Shown here piece after piece: positions 37,262 to 47,024 of a stretch of 58,064 nt of DNA. The translations under genes and the position numbers were made by a program. The notes under the pieces are model-generated. The model ran no database searches, was not told where the DNA came from, and saw nothing but the letters and a program-made list of their open reading frames with translations. The DNA is from Hylemonella gracilis ATCC 19624 (GTDB lineage Bacteria; Pseudomonadota; Gammaproteobacteria; Burkholderiales; Burkholderiaceae_C): assembly GCF_000211835.1 (NCBI RefSeq), contig NZ_AEGR01000044.1:1-58064 (forward strand), read 5' to 3'. Positions within the stretch are counted from its first letter, which is position 1; the number at the start of each line of letters is the position of its first letter.

Positions 37262-37750
37262 ATGACCTCCCATCGCGCCTCGCATCACCCCGATCCCACA
37301 ACGTCCGAACGCGCGGGCCTGGACACGATGCGACTGGACAAATGGCTGTGGGCCGCACGCTTCTACAAGACCCGGGCGCTGGCCGCCGAAGAAATCAGCA
37401 AAGGCCGTGCGCGCGTGAACGGCCAGGTCGCCAAGCCCGCGCGCGATCTCAAACCCGGCGACACGGTGGAACTGCGCCAGGGTGCGATCGGACGCACGGT
37501 GCGCGTGCTGGCCTTGAGCGCCCAGCGCGGCCCGGCCCCGGTGGCCGCCTTGCTCTACGACGAAACCCCCGAGTCCATCGCCCTGCGCGCGGCCGCTGCC
37601 GAACAACAGCGCTTGGCGGCCGAGCCCGCGCTGTCGCTGACCCAGGGCCGCCCCACCAAACGGGACCGACGCCAGCTCGACCGCGAACGCGGCAGCCCGC
37701 AGTCGGCGTCGAGCGGCTGGGGCGAGCGCTGGAGTGCTTCACTCGACTGA
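37262..37750 (+). CDS. Hsp15-type S4 RNA-binding protein
   Basis: This is a 162-residue S4-domain protein of the heat-shock protein 15 (HslR) family, which rescues stalled 50S subunits carrying peptidyl-tRNA. The S4 domain starts MRLDKWLWAARFYKTRALAAEEISKGRARVNGQ, and a basic tail (GRPTKRDRRQLDRER) follows. The gene symbol is left blank because S4 paralogues are hard to tell apart without alignment. The start at 37262 adds 22 residues before MRLDKW (ATG 37328); neither has a clear ribosome site. Confidence 0.88.
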   Translation: MTSHRASHHPDPTTSERAGLDTMRLDKWLWAARFYKTRALAAEEISKGRARVNGQVAKPARDLKPGDTVELRQGAIGRTVRVLALSAQRGPAPVAALLYDETPESIALRAAAAEQQRLAAEPALSLTQGRPTKRDRRQLDRERGSPQSASSGWGERWSASLD

Positions 37751-37896: not shown

Positions 37897-37992
37897 TTTG
37901 TAACATTTTTGTATAACTTTTTGATCAAAATATCCGCATATCGCCCTGCGGATTCGGTGTTCGGATAAAGTCTGTACAACTTTTGTACAAGA
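37897..37992 (+). promoter_or_regulatory. LitR/CarH-type operator: 11-bp repeats before the MerR gene
   Basis: Two abutting 11-mers, TTTGTAACATT (37897-37907) and TTTGTATAACT (37908-37918), are followed by the looser TTTTGATCAAA (37919-37929). A second pair, TCTGTACAACT (37971-37981) and TTTGTACAAGA (37982-37992), abuts the start codon at 37997. Direct repeats with 11-bp period are the known layout of CarH/LitR operators. The region is strikingly AT-rich against its surroundings. The second pair lies where bound protein would block transcription or initiation. Confidence 0.75.
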
Positions 37993-37996
37993 ACCG

Positions 37997-38923
37997 ATGT
38001 CCACCGATCCGTCGCAGGACCCCAACGCCCAGGAGTTTTTTCCGATCCGCACCGTGTCCACGCTGACCGGTGTGAATCCGATCACCCTGCGCGCCTGGGA
38101 GCGACGCCACGGACTGATCCGCCCCACGCGCACGGCCACCGGTCATCGGGTCTACACGCGTTCCGACATCGACACGGTGCATCGCATCCTCGCCCTGGTG
38201 GACTCGGGCGTCACGATCAGCCATGTGAGCGAGGCTCTGGCCGCTCAAGCGCGATCTTCCTCACTGGCCGCCACCGACGAAGGCCCTTGGGTCCGGGCTC
38301 GGGCCCAGATGGTGGATGCGATTTCGCGCTTCGACGAAGCCCGGCTGGAAACGCTCTACAACGAACTGCTGGCGGTGCATGCGATCGAGGAGGTCACGGC
38401 GCGCCTGTTGCTGCCGCTGCTGGTGGAGCTGGGCCAACGCTGGGACAACAACCAGCCCGGCGGCATCGCGGAAGAGCATTTCTTCGGCATGTACATGCGC
38501 ATCAAGCTCGGTGCGCGCCTGCACCATCGCAGCCGCGCGGTGCTAGGCCCCAAGCTGATTGCGGCCTGCCTGCCGGGCGAGCAACACGAAATCGGCTTGC
38601 TGTTGTTCGCGCTGGCCGCGCACGAACAGGGCTACCGCATGGTGCTGCTCGGTGCCAACATGCCACTGGACCAACTGCCCCACGCCGCCGAACGCACGCA
38701 GGCCGCGGGCATCGTGCTGTCCGGTTCGATCGAAGCCCCGCGCGCGCTGCACGCCGAAGCCCTGCCAGCGCTCGTGCGCGACGCTGCCATCCCCGTATTC
38801 GTGGGCGGTCCGACCTCGGTGCACCAGCAAGATGAAGTGCGCGCCGCAGGCGCCGTTCCCCTGGGCACGGACATCGCCCGTGGACTGCAACTGCTGCACC
38901 TCACCCTCAACCCTACGGAGTAA
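37997..38923 (+). CDS. MerR-family regulator with B12-binding domain (LitR/CarH-like photoreceptor)
   Basis: This is a 308-residue regulator. A MerR winged helix (FPIRTVSTLTGVNPITLRAWERRHGLI) spans about residues 14-75. A four-helix bundle and a Rossmann-like cobalamin domain follow. The B12 signature E-x-H-x-x-G is present as GEQHEIG with His197 as the likely lower axial ligand. The light-sensing cap residues of CarH (Trp, then Glu-His) appear as Trp149, Glu160 and His161, with ten rather than nine residues between Trp and Glu. Family members bind adenosylcobalamin, repress in the dark and release DNA in light. It heads the lipid gene cluster, and repeated operator elements precede it, so autorepression is likely. 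Confidence 0.9.
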   Translation: MSTDPSQDPNAQEFFPIRTVSTLTGVNPITLRAWERRHGLIRPTRTATGHRVYTRSDIDTVHRILALVDSGVTISHVSEALAAQARSSSLAATDEGPWVRARAQMVDAISRFDEARLETLYNELLAVHAIEEVTARLLLPLLVELGQRWDNNQPGGIAEEHFFGMYMRIKLGARLHHRSRAVLGPKLIAACLPGEQHEIGLLLFALAAHEQGYRMVLLGANMPLDQLPHAAERTQAAGIVLSGSIEAPRALHAEALPALVRDAAIPVFVGGPTSVHQQDEVRAAGAVPLGTDIARGLQLLHLTLNPTE

Positions 38924-38927
38924 ATCC

Positions 38928-40007
38928 ATGACCGCCCTGACCCAGAATGCACCGCCTTCGAAGGCGCCCGTGTCCCTCGCGCTGCGCTGGGCCGAACAGG
39001 GCTACCTGCCCGATGCGCTGATCCGCCACGGCATCCGACGCCTGACGCGCGAACGCCTGCAAGAGATCGACGCCGATGACGCCGAGGCCAGCGCCGAGCG
39101 GGCCACCCGCTTCATCTCCGCCCTGCCCCACCTGCCCGTGGCCCTGGTGCCCGAGGCCGCGAATGCCCAGCACTACGAGGTGCCGGCCGAATTCTTCCGC
39201 CACGCCCTGGGCAAGCACCGCAAGTACAGCTCGGCCTGGTGGCCCGAGGGCGTGCAGACCCTGGACGAGGCCGAAGCTCGCGGCCTGGCCGCGACCTGCG
39301 AGCACGCTGGCCTGGCGGACGGGCAACGTATCCTCGAACTCGGCTGCGGCTGGGGTTCGCTGACCTTGTGGATGGCCGAGCACTACCCGCAGGCGCGCAT
39401 CACCGCAGTGTCCAACTCAAACTCGCAGCGCGAGCACATCATGGCCGAGGCGAAACGTCGCAATCTCGGCAACGTGAACGTGATCACCTGCGACATGAAC
39501 CGCTTCGAGGCCCCGGAGCACTACGACCGCGTGGTCTCGGTGGAGATGCTGGAGCACATGCGCAACTGGGACGAAATCTTCCGCCGCGTGCACGGCTGGC
39601 TGCTGCCCGGGGGCCGCTTCTTCATGCACGTCTTCGTGCACCGGTCCGTGCCCTACGCCTTCGAAGTGCGCGACGAGAGCGATTGGATGAGCCAGTTCTT
39701 CTTCACCGGCGGCATGATGCCCAGCGATGACATGGCCCTGCACTTCCAGCGCAAGCTGCGGCTGGTGCAGCGCTGGCGCTGGGACGGCACCCATTACGAG
39801 AAAACCGCCAACGCCTGGCTGCGCAACATCGACGAGCGGCGCGCCGAGGTCATGCCGGTGCTGGCCGCCACCTATGGCCCGGACCAGGCGGCGCTCTGGT
39901 TCCAACGCTGGCGCATCTTCTTCATGGCTTGCGCGGAACTCTTTGGCTATGAACAGGGTCAGCAATGGTGGGTCAGCCACTACCTGTTCGAACGTCCCGC
40001 CGACTGA
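38928..40007 (+). CDS. CFA-family SAM-dependent methyltransferase (first copy)
   Basis: This is a 359-residue class I methyltransferase of the cyclopropane-fatty-acid synthase family. The SAM motif is ILELGCGWGSLTLWMA, and the preceding lipid-type region reads QHYEVPAEFFRHALGKHRKYSSAWW. It lacks the long N-terminal lipid-binding domain of the second copy (45756-47024) and is clearly divergent from it. Such short forms can methylate rather than cyclopropanate. It starts four bases after the MerR stop with GGAG upstream. UfaM-like fatty acid methylation is possible but unproven. Confidence 0.88.
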   Translation: MTALTQNAPPSKAPVSLALRWAEQGYLPDALIRHGIRRLTRERLQEIDADDAEASAERATRFISALPHLPVALVPEAANAQHYEVPAEFFRHALGKHRKYSSAWWPEGVQTLDEAEARGLAATCEHAGLADGQRILELGCGWGSLTLWMAEHYPQARITAVSNSNSQREHIMAEAKRRNLGNVNVITCDMNRFEAPEHYDRVVSVEMLEHMRNWDEIFRRVHGWLLPGGRFFMHVFVHRSVPYAFEVRDESDWMSQFFFTGGMMPSDDMALHFQRKLRLVQRWRWDGTHYEKTANAWLRNIDERRAEVMPVLAATYGPDQAALWFQRWRIFFMACAELFGYEQGQQWWVSHYLFERPAD

Positions 40008-40107
40008 GACGGTGACGTCCCAAAAGAGAGCGATCGACCGTCCTCCTGCCGGATGACCGCCTTCACCGGGCCGACATCCTTTCCCTGACCCCGACCCCGA
40101 GACCTTT

Positions 40108-40656
40108 GTGCGCAAACTCATCAACTTTCTGATCTATCAGACCGGCTGGCTGGTCTGCGTGCTGGGCGCCGCCCGAGGCTGGCCCTGGGCCGGCGTGGTC
40201 TTCGTGCTGCTGGCCCTGGCCTGGCATCTGCGCCAGGCCGAAGACCTGCGCGCGGAACTGCGCCTGGCCCTGATCGCGGGCCTGGTCGGCGCGCTCTGGG
40301 ACACCGCGCTGGCCGCCACCGGCCTGGTGCGCTTCACCAACGGCGTGCTGATCGACGGCACCGCGGCGTACTGGATGGTCGCGCTGTGGGTGCTGTTCGG
40401 CATGACGCTCAACGTCAGCCTGGCCTGGCTCAAGGAACACCTGCTGGGCGCCGCCATCCTGGGCGCCGTGGGTGGGCCTTTGGCGTACCTGGCGGGCGCC
40501 AAGCTCGGCGCCTTGTCCCTGCCCGACACCAACCTCGCCCTGCCGCTGCTGGCACTCGGCTGGGCGCTCATCACCCCCCTGCTGTGTGTGATCGCGCGCC
40601 GTTTCGACGGCTTTCGCGCGATGACCGCAAAACCCTTGGAGCCTTCTCATGTTTGA
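40108..40656 (+). CDS. DUF2878 membrane protein
   Basis: This is a 182-residue inner-membrane protein of the DUF2878 family with five or so hydrophobic helices, opening INFLIYQTGWLVCVLGAARG. No catalytic motif is known for the family. It recurs beside CFA-type methyltransferases and DUF1365 genes in proteobacteria. The start is a GTG after a 100-base gap that contains a GACGGT/ACCGTC hairpin (40008-40042). Its 3' end overlaps the next gene by eight bases, so they are translationally coupled. Confidence 0.8.
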   Translation: MRKLINFLIYQTGWLVCVLGAARGWPWAGVVFVLLALAWHLRQAEDLRAELRLALIAGLVGALWDTALAATGLVRFTNGVLIDGTAAYWMVALWVLFGMTLNVSLAWLKEHLLGAAILGAVGGPLAYLAGAKLGALSLPDTNLALPLLALGWALITPLLCVIARRFDGFRAMTAKPLEPSHV

Positions 40657-41437
40657 CTGGAATGCCGCCCTCTGGGCCTTGCTTGCGATGAGCCTGTTGG
40701 GCTTCGCCGGCTGGCTGCTCAGCCTCGCCAAGCGCGACGTCAGCATCGTCGACAGCCTGTGGCCCCTGTTCTTCCTGCTGGGCGCTTGGGTCCATGTGAT
40801 CGCGCAGACGGGCATGGCCAGCCCCGGCCCGCGCGCCCTGCTGCTGCTGGGCCTCGTGCTGATCTGGGCCCTGCGTCTGTCGGTCTACCTGACCTGGCGC
40901 AACTGGGGACAGCCGGAGGACCATCGTTACCAAGTGATCCGGGCGCGCAATGAGCCGGGATTCTCGGTCAAGAGCCTCTACCTGGTCTTCGGCTTGCAAG
41001 TCGTGCTGGCCTGGATCATCGCCGCCCCCCTGTTCGCGGCGCTCGGCAGCACCGAGCCCCTGGGTTGGCTGGACGCCCTGGGCGCCGCCGCTTGGTTGAT
41101 CGGCATGTTCTTTGAAACCGTGGGCGACGCGCAGCTCGCGCGCTTCAAGAGCAACCCCGCCGAGCGTGGCCGTGTGCTCGACACCGGTTTGTGGCGCTAC
41201 ACCCGCCACCCCAATTACTTCGGCGAGGCGCTGCTGTGGTGGGGCTTCTTCTTGATCGCCGTCGCTGCTGGCGGCTGGTGGAGCGTGTTTGGCCCCCTGC
41301 TCATGACCGTGCTGCTGCTCAAGGTCTCGGGCGTGGCCCTGCTGGAACAAGACATCGCGCAACGCCGGCCGGCCTATGCCGACTACATCCGCCGCACCAA
41401 CGCCTTTGTGCCTTGGTTTCCCAAGGAGCGCGCATGA
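40649..41437 (+). CDS. DUF1295 membrane protein (steroid 5-alpha-reductase/ICMT-like fold)
   Basis: This is a 262-residue polytopic protein of the DUF1295 family. The C-terminal signature GLWRYTRHPNYFGEALLWWG is shared with steroid 5-alpha reductases, isoprenylcysteine methyltransferases and ergosterol reductases. It could reduce or methylate a lipid double bond or headgroup; the actual reaction is unknown. It sits between DUF2878 and DUF6134 with overlapping ends (ATGA with the next gene), within the light-regulated cluster. Confidence 0.85.
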   Translation: MFDWNAALWALLAMSLLGFAGWLLSLAKRDVSIVDSLWPLFFLLGAWVHVIAQTGMASPGPRALLLLGLVLIWALRLSVYLTWRNWGQPEDHRYQVIRARNEPGFSVKSLYLVFGLQVVLAWIIAAPLFAALGSTEPLGWLDALGAAAWLIGMFFETVGDAQLARFKSNPAERGRVLDTGLWRYTRHPNYFGEALLWWGFFLIAVAAGGWWSVFGPLLMTVLLLKVSGVALLEQDIAQRRPAYADYIRRTNAFVPWFPKERA

Positions 41438-42159
41438 CCCTGGGTTCGCCCGCGCACGCGCCCGAGCCTCGCACCGTGCGAGTGCTGGCCAGGAGACTCC
41501 AGTCCGGCCTTAGCGCGGCTTGGTTGCCTCTGCTGGGCGGGCTCGCGCTCGTGCTTGGATTGGGCTCGACCCCGGCCTGGTCCAACGAGCGTGTCTGGCA
41601 ATTCCGCGTGCTGCTGGACGGCGACGAGGTCGGCAGCCACAGTTTTCGCGTCACCGAGGATGCCCGGCGTGGCGAGCGCGAAGTCCGCAGCGATGCGAAG
41701 TTCACGGTCCGCGTTCTCTTCGTGGAGGCCTACCGCTACGCCCACCAAGCGCGTGAAGTCTGGCAGGGTGATTGCCTGGCCCGCATCGAAGCCCGCACCG
41801 ACGATGATGGTGACATCCTCTCCGTTCAGGGGGAACGCCGCGCGGGCGGCTTTTCCGTGGACGGCCCCAAGGGGCGCGAGCAAGTGGCGGACTGCGTGAT
41901 GAGCTTCGCCTACTGGAATCCGCGCATGCTGAAACAGAGCCGCCTGCTCAACAGTCAGAGTGGTTTGTGGCAAGAGGTGCGGATCGAACCCCGGGGCGAG
42001 GAAACGTTGAACGTGCGTGGCACGCCCACCCGCACCCGCCGTTACGCCCTGCGCGGCGAGAAGCTGGACATCGACCTTTGGTACACCGACGCCGACGACT
42101 GGGTTCAGCTGGAGTCCCGCGTGACCGGCGGCCGCACCTTGCGCTACCAGCGCCTCTGA
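41434..42159 (+). CDS. DUF6134-type exported protein
   Basis: This is a 241-residue protein with a hydrophobic N-terminal segment (LSAAWLPLLGGLALVLGLGS, ending TPAWS) that is a probable signal peptide, so the product is likely periplasmic. The mature part is beta-rich (FRVLLDGDEVGSHSFRV...LDIDLWYTDADDWVQLESRV) and resembles the DUF6134 group found next to CFA/lipocalin genes. It could carry a lipid, but no function is established. The ATG overlaps the previous stop (ATGA). The lipocalin gene follows after 28 bases. Confidence 0.75.
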   Translation: MTLGSPAHAPEPRTVRVLARRLQSGLSAAWLPLLGGLALVLGLGSTPAWSNERVWQFRVLLDGDEVGSHSFRVTEDARRGEREVRSDAKFTVRVLFVEAYRYAHQAREVWQGDCLARIEARTDDDGDILSVQGERRAGGFSVDGPKGREQVADCVMSFAYWNPRMLKQSRLLNSQSGLWQEVRIEPRGEETLNVRGTPTRTRRYALRGEKLDIDLWYTDADDWVQLESRVTGGRTLRYQRL

Positions 42160-42187
42160 CGCAACCCGATCTCCACCCGACACCACC

Positions 42188-42748
42188 ATGCTGCAACGAC
42201 TCAAACCTTTCCTCGCGACGCTCGGCCTGAGCGGCCTCGTCGGCTTGCTGGCGGGCTGCCAAAGCAGCCCCGTGGCGCCCATGCCCACGGTGCCCCAAGT
42301 GGACTTGCCACGCTTCATGGGCGACTGGTACGTCATCGCCAACATTCCCACCTTCATCGAGCGCGGCGCGCACAACGCCGTCGAGAGCTACCGCATCGAC
42401 GCTGACGGCAGCATCGCCACCACCTTCCGTTTCCGCGCCGGCGGCTTCGACGGCGCCGAGAAGGTCTACAACCCGCGAGGCTTCGTGCTGGACGCCAGCA
42501 ACGCCTTGTGGGGCATGCGTTTCGTCTGGCCGATCAAGGCCGACTACCGCATCACCTACCTGGACGCCAGCTACAGCCAGACCGTGATCGCGCGCCAAGC
42601 GCGCGACTACGTCTGGATCATGGCGCGCACCCCCTCGATTTCAGAGACCGACTACGCTACCCTGGTGCGCCACGTCGCCGCACTGGGCTACGACGTCAAC
42701 CGGCTGCAAAAGGTGCCACAGCGCTGGCACTCGGCCAAGGAGCAATGA
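42188..42748 (+). CDS. lipocalin family lipoprotein (Blc-like)
   Basis: This is a 186-residue bacterial lipocalin. A lipoprotein signal ends at LLAGC (Cys23), so it is membrane-anchored. The lipocalin signature GDWYVIANIP follows near residue 45, and the C-terminal strand ends QTVIARQARDYVWIMAR. E. coli Blc binds lysophospholipids and fatty acids. In this cluster it probably handles modified or damaged acyl chains in the envelope. AAGGAG at its 3' end serves the desaturase gene. Confidence 0.9.
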   Translation: MLQRLKPFLATLGLSGLVGLLAGCQSSPVAPMPTVPQVDLPRFMGDWYVIANIPTFIERGAHNAVESYRIDADGSIATTFRFRAGGFDGAEKVYNPRGFVLDASNALWGMRFVWPIKADYRITYLDASYSQTVIARQARDYVWIMARTPSISETDYATLVRHVAALGYDVNRLQKVPQRWHSAKEQ

Positions 42749-43716
42749 TGCGCAGCCTGCTTGCCTGGTTCGACAACCAGTACGCCCCCGTCACCGACAC
42801 CGAACCCTCGGATGCCCAGGGCGCGCCCGCGCGCCGCGTGGACTGGCTGCGCGTGCTGCCTTTCATCGGGCTGCACCTGGGCTGCCTGGCGGCGTTCTGG
42901 ACCGGCGTGAGCGCGACCGCGTTGGCGGTGGCGCTGGCGCTGTATGCCGTGCGCATGTTCGCCATCACGGGCTTCTACCACCGCTATTTCGCGCACAAGG
43001 CCTTCCGCGCCTCTCGCCCCATGCAACTGGTCTTCGCGTTGCTGGGTGCGAGCGCGGCCCAGCGCGGACCGCTCTGGTGGGCTTCGCACCACCGGCACCA
43101 TCACGCGCATGCGGACCGCGAGACCGACGCGCACTCTCCGCATCACCAAGGCCTGCTGTGGTCCCACATGGGTTGGTTCCTCGCGCGGGAAAACTTCGCG
43201 ACGCGCATGGCCCAGGTGCCGGACCTGGCGCGTTATCCCGAGCTGCGCTTCCTTGACCGTTTCGACGTGCTCGTGCCGGTGCTGCTCGGCGTGGGTCTCT
43301 ACGGCACGGGCGAATGGCTGGCCGCTGCCTGGCCTGCGCTGGGGACCGATGGCCCCATGCTGCTGGTCTGGGGTTTTTGCATTTCGACCGTCGCGCTTTA
43401 CCACGCGACCTTCCTGGTCAACTCGATGGCCCACAAGATCGGCAGCCGGCGCTACGCCGTGCGGGACACCTCGCGCAACAATTTCTGGCTGGCCCTGCTG
43501 ACCTTTGGTGAAGGCTGGCACAACAACCACCACCGCTACCCCGGCTCGGCGCGCCAGGGCTTCTATTGGTGGGAAATCGACCTCACCTACTACGGCTTGC
43601 GCGCGCTGTCCGCCGTGGGCCTCGTGCGCGACCTGCGTCCCGTGCCTGCGGCCATCCGCGCTGGCGGCCGCGTGGAGCAGCCTGACCACGACGACCTGCC
43701 GGGAGGGCCGGCATGA
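42748..43716 (+). CDS. membrane fatty acid desaturase (delta-9 acyl-CoA type)
   Basis: This is a diiron membrane desaturase of 322 residues with the three His boxes HRYFAH, HHRHH (in SHHRHHHAHAD) and HNNHH (in GWHNNHHRYP). It has four hydrophobic segments in the usual pairs. It resembles acyl-CoA or phospholipid delta-9 desaturases and would make the double bonds that the CFA enzymes act on. Two adjacent ATGs exist; AAGGAG is two bases from the first (42745) and five from the second (42748), so the second is chosen. It overlaps the lipocalin stop and the FAD oxidoreductase start. Confidence 0.93.
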   Translation: MRSLLAWFDNQYAPVTDTEPSDAQGAPARRVDWLRVLPFIGLHLGCLAAFWTGVSATALAVALALYAVRMFAITGFYHRYFAHKAFRASRPMQLVFALLGASAAQRGPLWWASHHRHHHAHADRETDAHSPHHQGLLWSHMGWFLARENFATRMAQVPDLARYPELRFLDRFDVLVPVLLGVGLYGTGEWLAAAWPALGTDGPMLLVWGFCISTVALYHATFLVNSMAHKIGSRRYAVRDTSRNNFWLALLTFGEGWHNNHHRYPGSARQGFYWWEIDLTYYGLRALSAVGLVRDLRPVPAAIRAGGRVEQPDHDDLPGGPA

Positions 43717-44963
43717 GGATCGCCATCGTTGGCACCGGCATCGCTGGCAACGTGGTCGCCCACCATCTGGCGCGCGAGCACGACATCACGGTCTACGAAG
43801 CCGGCTCCCATGTCGGCGGCCACACCCACACCCACGAAGTCCAGCAGGGCGGCCGCAGCTACCAGGTGGACACGGGCTTCATCGTCTACAACGACTGGAC
43901 CTACCCGAACTTCATCGCCCTGCTGGAAGAACTGGGCGTGGCCACGCAAGCCAGCAGCATGAGCTTCTCGGTGCGCGACGAGGGCAGTGGCCTCGAATAC
44001 AACGGCACCACGCTCAACACCTTGTTCGCGCAGCGGCGCAACCTGCTGCGCCCCTCCTTCCTGCGCATGATCCGTGACATCCTGCGCTTCAACCGCGAGG
44101 CGCCGGCCCTGCTGCAAGACGGTGCCGAAGACATCACGCTGGGCGACTACCTGGAGCGAGGCCGCTACACACGCGGATTCATCGAGCACTACATCGTGCC
44201 CATGGGCGCGGCGATCTGGTCCACCGACCCGGTGAACATGCTTGCCTTCCCAGCCCGCTACTTCGTGCGCTTCTTCCACAACCACGGCATGCTCTCGGTG
44301 AACGAACGCCCCCAGTGGCGCGTGATCCGTGGCGGCTCCGCGCGCTACGTCGAAGCGCTGGTGGCCCCCTTCCGCGATCGCATTCGTCTGAACACCCCGG
44401 TGCAGTCGATCCGCCGCGAGGGTGACCACGCTTGGGTGCAGGCGCAAGGCCAGGCGGCTGAGCGCTACGACGCGGTCTTCCTGGCCTGCCACAGCGACCA
44501 GGCCCTGCGCCTGCTGGCCGACCCCAGCGCGGCCGAACGAGAGGTGCTGGGCGCCATCCGCTACCAGCCCAACGAGGCCGTGCTGCATACCGACGCCCGC
44601 CTGCTGCCGCGAACGCGCCGCGCGTGGGCCGCGTGGAACTACCACGTGCTGCCCAAGGACACGGGCCGGGTCGCGCTGACCTACAACATGAACATCCTGC
44701 AGTCGCTGGATGCGCCCACGCCCTTCCTGGTCACGCTCAACCACAGCGATGCCATCGATCCGGCCAAGGTGATCAAACGCATTCCCTACGAGCACCCGCT
44801 GTACACCCGTGCGGGCGTGGCGGCTCAGGCGCGCCAGGGCGAGATCAACGGCCCCCTGCGCACCTATTTCTGCGGCGCGTACTGGCGCTACGGCTTCCAC
44901 GAGGATGGCGTGGTCAGCGCCCTGGCCGCGCTGGAACATTTCAAGGCGCGCGCCCATGTTTAG
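43713..44963 (+). CDS. FAD-dependent amine oxidase-like protein (possible UfaD-type)
   Basis: This is a 416-residue flavoprotein of the NAD(P)/FAD-binding amine-oxidase superfamily. The dinucleotide motif is [19 protein letters not shown], followed by [11 protein letters not shown], and the C-terminal FAD contact region ends [16 protein letters not shown]. It is the type always found beside DUF1365 and CFA genes. In Rhodobacter a homologue (UfaD-like) desaturates methylated fatty acids on the way to furan fatty acids; this assignment is by analogy. It overlaps the neighbours at both ends (ATGA with the desaturase). Confidence 0.85.
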
Positions 44964-45759
44964 CGCGCTCTACGTCGGGCGCGTGCGGCACCGGCGCTTG
45001 CTGCCCCGGCCCCATGATTTCCGCTACGGCCTCTTCATGGTCTACCTGGACCTGGCCGAACTGGACCGCGTGTTCGCGGGCCGCTGGTTCTGGTCCACGC
45101 GGCGCATGGCCCTGGCCCGCTTCCGGCGCGAGGACTACTTGGGTGACCCGGCCCTGCCGCTGGACGAGGCCGTGCGACTGCGCGTGGCCCAAGCCACGGG
45201 GCAACGCCCCACCGGACCGATCCGCATGCTCACGCACCTGCGCTACTTCGGTTATGTCTTCAATCCGGTGACGTTCTATTACGTGCACGATGCGGCCGAC
45301 ACGCGGGTGGAAACCATCGTCGCGGAGATCACCAACACGCCCTGGAAAGAGCGGCACAGCTATGTGCTGCCGCAGGACGCGCACGCCCCCAAGCCGGACT
45401 TGCATCGCCACCGCTTCACCAAGAATTTTCACGTTTCCCCCTTCATGCCCATGGAGCAGGAGTACGACTGGCGCTTCACGTCACCCGGCGAGACCCTCTC
45501 GGTGCACATGGAGAACCTGCAAGCGGGTCAGAAAGTCTTCGACGCGACCTTGGCCCTCGAACGCAGGCCGCTGACCGGCGCCAACCTCGCGCGCGCCCTC
45601 CTGTTCTACCCGGCCATGACCTTGCAGGTCGTCGTTGGCATCCACTGGCAAGCGCTCAAGCTCTGGCTCAAGCGCACGCCCTTCCACATCCACCCGAGCA
45701 AGCGCGCGCCCGATCCGGTCTCGGCGGGTGCCGCCACCCCACAGGAACCCAGGCCATGA
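44956..45759 (+). CDS. DUF1365 family protein
   Basis: This is a 267-residue DUF1365 protein. It opens [31 protein letters not shown] and contains the family core [16 protein letters not shown] and [16 protein letters not shown]. No biochemical activity is firmly assigned; in every context it pairs with the FAD oxidoreductase and CFA synthase, implying a shared step on acyl chains. It starts eight bases inside the FAD gene and its stop overlaps the next start (ATGA). Confidence 0.88.
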
Positions 45760-47024
45760 ACACCCTCGCGAACACCGTCCCCAACAGCGCGCCCGCCTCC
45801 ATCGCTGGCTACACCCCCAAGCCCCACTTCCTTGACGGCTTGGCCCAGCGCGGCGTGCGCGAGCGCCTGGCGCAGCTGCGGCATGGCCGCGTCAGCCTGA
45901 TCGATCAGGGCCAGCGCGTGGACTACGGCCTGCCCGACGCGCGCTGCCCCCTGAGCGTGCAACTCGAAGTGCTGGACCCGCGTTTCTGGGGTGAGCTGGC
46001 GTTTGGCGGCTCCATCGGGGCCGGTGAAGCCTACATGGCGGGCTACTGGCGCTGTGACGACCTGACCGGCCTGGTGCGCATCCTGCTGCAGAACCGGGAC
46101 GTCCTCGACGGCATGGAGGGCGGCCTGGCCCGACTGACCGCGCCCCTGCAAAAGGCCTTGCACTGGGCCAACCGCAACACGCGCAGCGGCTCGCGCCGCA
46201 ACATCGCCGCGCACTACGACCTGGGCAACGACTTCTTCGCCCTCTTTCTCGACCCGACGATGATGTACTCCTGCGCGTACTACGAAACGCCGCAGACCAC
46301 GCTCGAAGAAGCCCAACAGGCGAGATTGCACCGCGTCTGCCAGCACCTGAAGCTGGGGCCCGACGACCATCTGCTCGAAATCGGCACCGGCTGGGGTGGC
46401 ATGGCCATCCACGCGGCCCAGCACTACGGCTGCCGCGTGACCACCACCACCATCTCGCGCCAGCAGTACGAATTGGCGCAAGAACGCGTGGCCGCCGCCG
46501 GGCTGCAAGACCGCATCACCTTGCTGCTGGAAGACTACCGTGACCTGACCGGCCAATACGACAAGCTGGTGTCGCTGGAAATGATCGAAGCCGTGGGCCA
46601 CCAGTTCTACGGCGACTACTTCGCGCAATGCGCGCGCCTGCTCAAGGACGACGGACTGATGCTGTTGCAGGCCATCACCATCGCCGACCAGCGCTACGAA
46701 GCGGCGCGCAAGTCCGTGGATTTCATCCAGCGCCACATCTTCCCCGGCAGCACCATCCCGTCCATCACGGCCATGCTCAACGCCATCACGGCCGAGACCG
46801 ACATGAAACTGGTGCGGCTCGACGACATCGGCCCGCACTACGCCACCACGCTGCGTCACTGGCGCGAGCGTTTCATGGCCCGGCTTGACGAAGTTCGTCT
46901 ACTCGGTTATCCGGACACGTTCATCCGCATGTGGGATTTCTACCTCTGCTACTGTGAGGGCGGCTTCGAGGAACGCGCCCTCGGCGACGTGCACATGCTG
47001 CTTGCGAAGCCCGGCGCCCGCTGA
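45756..47024 (+). CDS. cfa: cyclopropane-fatty-acyl-phospholipid synthase (second copy)
   Basis: This is a full-length CFA synthase type protein of 422 residues. It has an N-terminal lipid-binding half, the substrate motif [19 protein letters not shown] with MMYSCAYYE, the SAM motif [16 protein letters not shown], and the carbonate/active-site region [15 protein letters not shown]. It adds a methylene (or, in some homologues, methyl) group from SAM to unsaturated phospholipid acyl chains. It is the last gene of the cluster and overlaps DUF1365. Having two divergent CFA-family genes in one unit suggests two different modifications. Confidence 0.93.

Follow-up and report, generated by a model that had tools for sequence, protein, structure and literature searches.

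A putative CarH-like operator of 11-bp direct repeats, with a second array, upstream of a B12-type MerR gene heading lipid genes in Hylemonella gracilis

Genes and repeat arrays of the locus

The window (the whole stretch of 58,064 nucleotides that was analysed) contains on its forward strand the gene of a CarH/LitR-like regulator, upstream of which a distal and a proximal array of 11-bp repeat units are situated (Table 1). Nine genes on the same strand follow behind the regulator (38928-47024), either overlapping or separated by gaps of at most 100 bases, and the regulator probably heads a membrane-lipid operon whose genes would be transcribed together with it. The B12-type regulator presumably acts on these nine lipid and membrane genes and not on carotenoid genes; the FAD-dependent protein among them matches phytoene-desaturase models with a weak score below the cut-off. 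Two reverse-strand open reading frames between the S4-domain gene and the regulator have no Pfam match, so that no divergent gene is evident.

Table 1. Features of the locus (positions in the window; bit scores from the matrix trained on orthologs; columns kept refer to the window and two sister species)
Feature	Position	Strand	Remarks
S4-domain gene upstream of the regulator	37328-37750	+ (same strand as regulator)	predicted start
Distal repeat unit 1	37897-37907	+	TTTGTAACATT, degenerate; 6.4 bits; 6/11 columns kept
Distal repeat unit 2	37908-37918	+	TTTGTATAACT, top single unit of the locus; 17.2 bits; 9/11 columns kept
Gap between the arrays	37919-37959	+	includes the claimed repeat TTTTGATCAAA; candidate place of a -35 region
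Proximal repeat unit 1	37960-37970	+	TTCGGATAAAG, degenerate in the window; -1.5 bits; candidate -10
Proximal repeat unit 2	37971-37981	+	TCTGTACAACT; 13.1 bits; 10/11 columns kept
Proximal repeat unit 3	37982-37992	+	TTTGTACAAGA; 14.4 bits; 11/11 columns kept
CarH/LitR-like regulator, 308 aa	37997-38923	+	Pfam: MerR DNA-binding domain, B12-binding_2 helix bundle, B12-binding Rossmann domain
Cyclopropane-fatty-acid-synthase-type methyltransferase (CMAS), presumed first target	38928-40007	+	Pfam
DUF2878 membrane protein	40108-40656	+	Pfam
DUF1295 (steroid-reductase-like) membrane protein	40649-41437	+	Pfam
DUF6134 protein	41434-42159	+	Pfam
Lipocalin (Blc-like)	42188-42748	+	Pfam; NCBIfam Blc model below cut-off
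Fatty-acid desaturase	42745-43716	+	Pfam on 42583-43716; predicted start codon
FAD-dependent amine-oxidase-type protein	43713-44963	+	Pfam
DUF1365 protein	44956-45759	+	Pfam
Second CMAS, cyclopropane-fatty-acid-synthase-type protein	45756-47024	+	Pfam CMAS; NCBIfam CFA synthase models below cut-offs

In a sequence-only reading of this DNA, a complete array of five 11-bp repeats with a 41-base gap (37930-37970) had been proposed. The five sequences and the gap were found exactly where that reading had placed them, and the two 11-bp pairs are real; an intact five-unit array is rejected, however, as TTTTGATCAAA (37919-37929) fails as a repeat, the degenerate unit at 37960-37970 had been overlooked, and the first distal unit is weak. 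The best core in TTTTGATCAAA lies 12 instead of 11 bp from its neighbour (3.6 bits, and -3.5 bits in register), and the sequence is unconserved, the sister species having TTTTAAGAAAA and TATTTA-AAAA at that place. At 37960-37970, the sister species possess TTCGTATACAT (8.5 bits) and TTCGTATAAAT (12.5 bits), both in register with the proximal units, so that the proximal array is counted as three units, the first of which has apparently decayed to TTCGGATAAAG in the window. Four bases separate the end of the array at 37992 from the ATG of the regulator at 37997.

The same reading had suggested searching sister genomes for the repeats, and they are indeed retained there: proximal units 2 and 3 are identical in 21/22 columns within the genus (window and two sister species), compared with 18/30 columns in the gap at 37930-37959 and 25/57 in the upstream flank (alignment gaps counted as differences). 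Concerning the claim that all units run in one direction, it is well supported for TTTGTATAACT (17.2 bits forward vs 7.6 reverse), whereas the core of the two TGTACA units is a palindrome, such that their direction is judged from the flanking bases (27.4 bits forward vs 20.8 reverse for the pair).

Significance and conservation of the repeats

The repeats were scored with a 14-column matrix trained on 55 units from 17 loci, all outside the genus, the sole criterion of choice being two TGTAYA-like hexamers spaced by 11 bp and having together no more than one mismatch; the resulting unit consensus is TTTGTA(C/T)AAnT. On both strands of the window, the top pair has its cores at 37973/37984 (27.4 bits), followed by a second distinct pair at 37899/37910 (23.6 bits), and the best pair away from the locus reaches 8.2 bits. 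The best pair in 60 simulated windows of the same dinucleotide content (both strands) scores 17.1 bits, and none of 20,000 simulated 116-bp stretches with the local AT-rich composition reached 23.5 bits on the forward strand. Throughout the 3.6-Mb genome, only two 11-bp pairs matched with at most two mismatches, both of them at the locus (plus the reverse reading of the proximal pair), compared with one match of the reversed control pattern. A looser pattern with one mismatch matched, besides the proximal pair, one further place (2 forward and 2 reverse matches); its reversed controls gave 3 and 3 matches, which puts the looser pattern at chance level. Both 11-bp pairs are not due to chance.

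When the genome of the window itself is included, the regulator gene occurs in 3 of 26 genomes at the genus level, in 11 of 399 at the order level, and in 43 of 369 at the class level. The loci examined number 42, i.e., the window and 41 others; L035-L038, L046, and L047, being repeats of other loci, were dropped, and 15 match rows of the class-level gene search, which came without loci, stand outside the 42. L043 and L044 are absent from the 37-locus hexamer and matrix counts, from the 40-locus unit scan and from the promoter scan, and are present in the 39-locus count of exact pairs, in the palindrome count over 42 loci, and in the motif comparison of 42 proteins. Upstream distances start at the beginning of the protein match, which sometimes differs from the true start codon.

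In the genus, pairs without any mismatch are confined to the same 3 of the 26 genomes that carry the gene. One-mismatch matches in two genomes without the gene (G025:C25:27842 and G010:C166:8742) are probably due to chance, since reversed-pattern controls match in five of the 26. Upstream of the 37 non-genus orthologs, exact TGTA[CT]A hexamers, counted independently of the matrix, are spaced by 11 bp 12 times; the next commonest spacing is 42 bp (4 times), and a second cluster extends from 42 to 46 bp (10 pairs). An exact 11-bp pair is found upstream in 9 of the 39 non-genus loci and in none of 78 in-gene stretches. With the matrix, a pair of at least 18 bits on either strand occurs upstream in 23/37 loci, compared with 0/74 in-gene and 3/144 further-upstream stretches; 17 of these 37 orthologs had trained the matrix, and the cleaner figure is 7 of the 22 loci outside its training. 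Forward pairs at 11 bp amount to 26 in the orthologs, with 17/37 loci having one (units of at least 8 bits). A forward unit of at least 8 bits is absent upstream in 8 of the 37 orthologs, and four of the 40 loci scanned (L055, L058, L063, L073) have no unit of at least 7 bits in either direction. Across Burkholderiales and other Gammaproteobacteria, 11-bp repeats are thus found again before many of the orthologs, though not before all of them.

The 11-bp spacing also bears on the way in which the arrays would be bound. As TGTACA is a palindrome, they might be inverted-repeat dimer sites in the style of class II LitR (TGTACA-N12-TGTACA); the hexamer is the same as in the consensus of PplR1 and PmlR2, and the two-site layout is similar (passages of PMC9758184). 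Such binding is nevertheless very improbable, as the spacing in the window is 11 and not 18 bp, forward pairs in the orthologs number 0 at 18 bp vs 26 at 11 bp, and the flanks favour one orientation, though the other one prevails in 4 of 19 clear loci (forward clearly better in 15; reverse in L051, L064, L069, and L071). The N12 arrangement is thus rejected.

Concerning promoter elements, no sigma-70 promoter is recognisable in the window, neither at 9/12 nor, under relaxed rules, at 8/12. One sister species (L003) has TGTACA-17-TATAAA at the distal unit, and the other (L004) has none. A promoter-like match of at least 9/12 is present in 24 of 40 loci scanned, and its best -10 lies exactly in a repeat unit in 10 of these 24, the unit belonging to the start-proximal array or being the only one in eight and being a distal one in two (L003, L007). 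The arrays may plausibly cover promoter elements, an overlap that is partly built in because the unit itself resembles a -10 box. The repeats could also be mostly promoter elements, i.e., -10 boxes resembling TGTATAAT within an AT-rich region around the start, of which a few would happen to be 11 bp apart by chance, and the TAYAAT-like bases of the unit as well as the 10 coincidences just mentioned are in line with this. The sharp 11-bp spacing across 37 orthologs, the restriction of zero-mismatch pairs in the genus to the three gene-bearing genomes, and the fact that the two best-conserved units of the window are TGTACA and not TATAAT make this explanation highly unlikely. The proposal of the sequence-only reading that the own promoter of the regulator is blocked is plausible, yet with no recognisable promoter in the window the exact step blocked is one that we infer.

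In 13 of the 39 non-genus loci, the regulator gene has behind it a CMAS-type gene 57-67% identical to that of the window (tblastn; some loci end soon after the regulator). These 13 and the three genus loci mostly possess an array close to the start codon and one or more units further upstream; exceptions are L043 with one forward unit only, L052 with one array only, and L044 with variant TTGAATA-type units. From the last distal to the first proximal unit, the distance in seven non-genus Burkholderiales loci is 43-47 bp in five, 34 bp in one, and 66 bp in one (the distance in L041 becomes 34 bp if a weak unit is counted; L043-L045 are outside this set). In a tree of the 42 proteins, the CMAS-linked group needs three changes, and a single origin of the group is still conceivable. 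L043 exhibits drifted units (TTTGAAGAACT/TTTGCATAATA/TTTGAATCGTA) at the 11-bp period, and several copies of TTGAATAAGT are found upstream in L044; these drifted units perhaps reflect co-evolution of the operator with the DNA-binding domain.

The regulator protein and a sister clade of B12-MerR genes

The MerR, B12-binding_2, and B12-binding (PF02310) domains of the window protein all score above the Pfam cut-offs, and the nearest solved structures are those of Thermus thermophilus CarH (3whp and 5c8d, E 1.4e-29); with the NCBIfam CarH equivalog model NF052513, the protein reaches 131.6 bits, below the cut-off of 400. Among three other proteins of the clade scanned for domains, L006 lies just below the PF02310 cut-off and L045 is without PF02310. 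The elements GxxW, EH, GxxH, and GxxxP, which have been proposed to mark cobalamin domains that respond to light (passages of PMC11796333), are complete in the window protein as GQRW, EH, GEQH, and GANMP. As to the B12 motif D/ExHx2G/P-x41-SxT/V-x22-27-GG, EQHEIG, the x41 spacing, and a later GG are present, and the SxT/V step is represented by SGS.

Instead of the strict Wx9EH, the window protein has Wx10EH, with an extra residue in the loop from the adenosyl-capping Trp to Glu-His (residues 149-161; AAC AAC in the DNA). The longer form is shared with the Hylemonella gracilis ortholog L032 (88% identical), whereas the protein of the third sister species (G003, 88% identical) has the regular spacing; in the 42-protein set, x9 is found in 38, x10 in 3, and the motif not in 1. 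This Trp is followed by Asp where T. thermophilus CarH has His132, and His is found at this site in none of the 41 proteins (of 42) in which the Trp can be placed. In T. thermophilus CarH, His132 completes the bis-His state after light; the H132A variant mostly stayed tetrameric after light in a 2023 study, whereas an earlier report cited therein had found it disassembled (passages of PMC10442372). Given Wx10EH and the Asp, light release by the window protein may follow a different mechanism or be weaker. The L075 ortholog seems to be without the Trp, the Glu-His, and the lower-ligand His of the cofactor pocket, and two TTGTACAAT-type units 13 bp apart are situated upstream of its gene.

On the side of the cofactor, the genome encodes a CobA/CobO/BtuR-family adenosyltransferase and has two cobalamin riboswitches. 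The repeats might be an operator and the protein nonetheless insensitive to B12 and light, i.e., a B12-independent repressor similar to CarA or class II LitR that is relieved by another signal or partner. Wx10EH and the Asp would suit such a protein, CarA retains the B12 motif yet acts without B12 (passages of PMC8156234), and a short LOV protein relieves class II LitR (passages of PMC9758184). However, both B12 domains are above the Pfam cut-offs here, whereas class II LitR retains just one (passages of PMC9758184), the closely similar G003 protein has the regular Wx9EH, and no BLUF protein or gene was found in three genomes of the genus; a B12-independent repressor is considered possible, albeit rather unlikely.

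A distantly related B12-MerR gene (25-33% identity) occurs in many genomes of the genus that lack the gene of the window. Among 24 loci of this sister clade (L008-L031, 12 of them in the genus), the 250 bp before the gene match contain the palindrome TTGTC-N3-GACAA exactly in 18 and with at most one mismatch in 22, whereas exact copies are absent from all 48 in-gene stretches and, even with one mismatch, the palindrome is absent from all 42 loci of the window's clade. Paired palindromes occur in 14 sister-clade loci and are 62-63 bp apart in 13 of them (exactly 63 bp in 12) and 21 bp apart in one; many of the 24 loci are close relatives, such that the 63-bp spacing does not represent 12 independent events. 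The five sister-clade proteins scanned match both B12 domains, although one stays slightly under the cut-off of PF02310, and an amine-oxidase gene 45-50% identical to that of the window is present in 18 of the 24 loci. The sister clade thus has TTGTC-N3-GACAA palindromes instead of 11-bp direct repeats. In the passages of the literature searched, no published description was recognised of such sites at B12-MerR genes, nor of a direct-repeat operator for the clade of the window.

Relation to known light switches and proposed mechanism

In the dark, an AdoCbl-bound oligomer of CarH occupies 11-bp direct repeats, so that RNA polymerase is blocked (passages of PMC8156234 and PMC9304148). CarH of T. 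thermophilus and Bacillus megaterium (class I LitR) combines a MerR domain with a two-part B12 domain, as does the window protein, and class I operators consist of three or four tandem 11-bp direct repeats with a TnnACA core over the target promoter (same sources), to which the tandem repeats described here appear to correspond; the T. thermophilus operator has three units (passages of PMC8156234), equally to the proximal array of the window. Despite this similarity, there are differences from class I CarH: the protein possesses Wx10EH, Asp for His132, and SGS; the three-unit proximal array includes a decayed unit and is accompanied by a separate distal array 41 bp upstream; and the regulator heads lipid genes instead of carotenoid genes. 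A mixture of good and degenerate direct repeats, down to one or two good units, is also described for CarH operators of Myxococcales, as found in the window; there, however, each promoter has only one array region, or a pair of divergent promoters is served by two operators (passages of PMC9304148), whereas nothing in the window points to a divergent gene.

Class II LitR of Pseudomonas (PplR1, PmlR2) shares with the window TGTACA hexamers and two sites, which there lie at the -35 region and in the stretch from the start site to the ATG, and its targets in P. putida include a furan fatty acid synthase, comparable to the lipid genes of the window; its sites have the 18-bp TGTACA-N12-TGTACA form and the protein is LOV-relieved and has no B12-binding Rossmann domain, whereas an 11-bp period and PF02310 are found here (passages of PMC9758184 for class II LitR). 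By its description, the MerR-type blue-light-response regulator VCA0056 of Vibrio cholerae, which affects its own gene, also resembles the regulator of the window, but the passages of PMC5241685 describe no operator for it. The locus very probably represents a CarH-like operator of direct repeats that includes a second array and precedes a B12-MerR gene heading lipid genes, i.e., a variant of a known switch. The corresponding claim of the sequence-only reading, a CarH/LitR-type direct-repeat operator before its own B12-MerR gene, is supported by the conservation among orthologs, by the uniqueness in the genome at up to two mismatches, and by the published 11-bp period of CarH.

It is considered likely that the CarH/LitR-like protein has its operator in these repeats and that they serve AdoCbl-dependent autorepression of the regulator and the lipid genes in the dark, with release by light, where we infer binding, repression, dependence on light and B12, and co-transcription. 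In the dark, the MerR-type DNA-binding domains of the AdoCbl-bound oligomer would sit on the proximal 11-bp units and, more weakly, on the distal ones; so bound, the oligomer would cover or bracket the promoter and repress both the regulator and the lipid-remodelling genes that follow. Light would break the Co-C bond, the oligomer would leave the DNA, and the genes would be expressed, presumably as a membrane photoprotection response.

More tentatively, and with doubtful odds, one oligomer or two joined ones may bridge both arrays on the same face of the DNA and hold the promoter in a repression loop opened by light, the sister clade of B12-MerR genes doing likewise with its paired palindromes 63 bp apart. 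The offset from the strong distal to the strong proximal unit is 63 bp in the window (six helical turns) and 62-63 bp in the genus, which is compatible with looping. The helical phasing of the arrays at ten loci (three of the genus and seven of other Burkholderiales) has a resultant length of 0.51 at 10.5 bp and of 0.39 at 11 bp, values that speak clearly neither for nor against a common phase. Such a loop-based two-array design, if true, would be undescribed for B12 photoreceptors in the passages of the literature searched. With His at the site of His132 in none of the 41 readable proteins, nature provides in this set a means of examining whether the His132 ligand switch is required for light release. 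If the proposed operator is confirmed, the known range of direct-repeat B12 light operators would grow to include Burkholderiales as well as other Gammaproteobacteria, with membrane-lipid genes in place of carotenoid genes as their targets.
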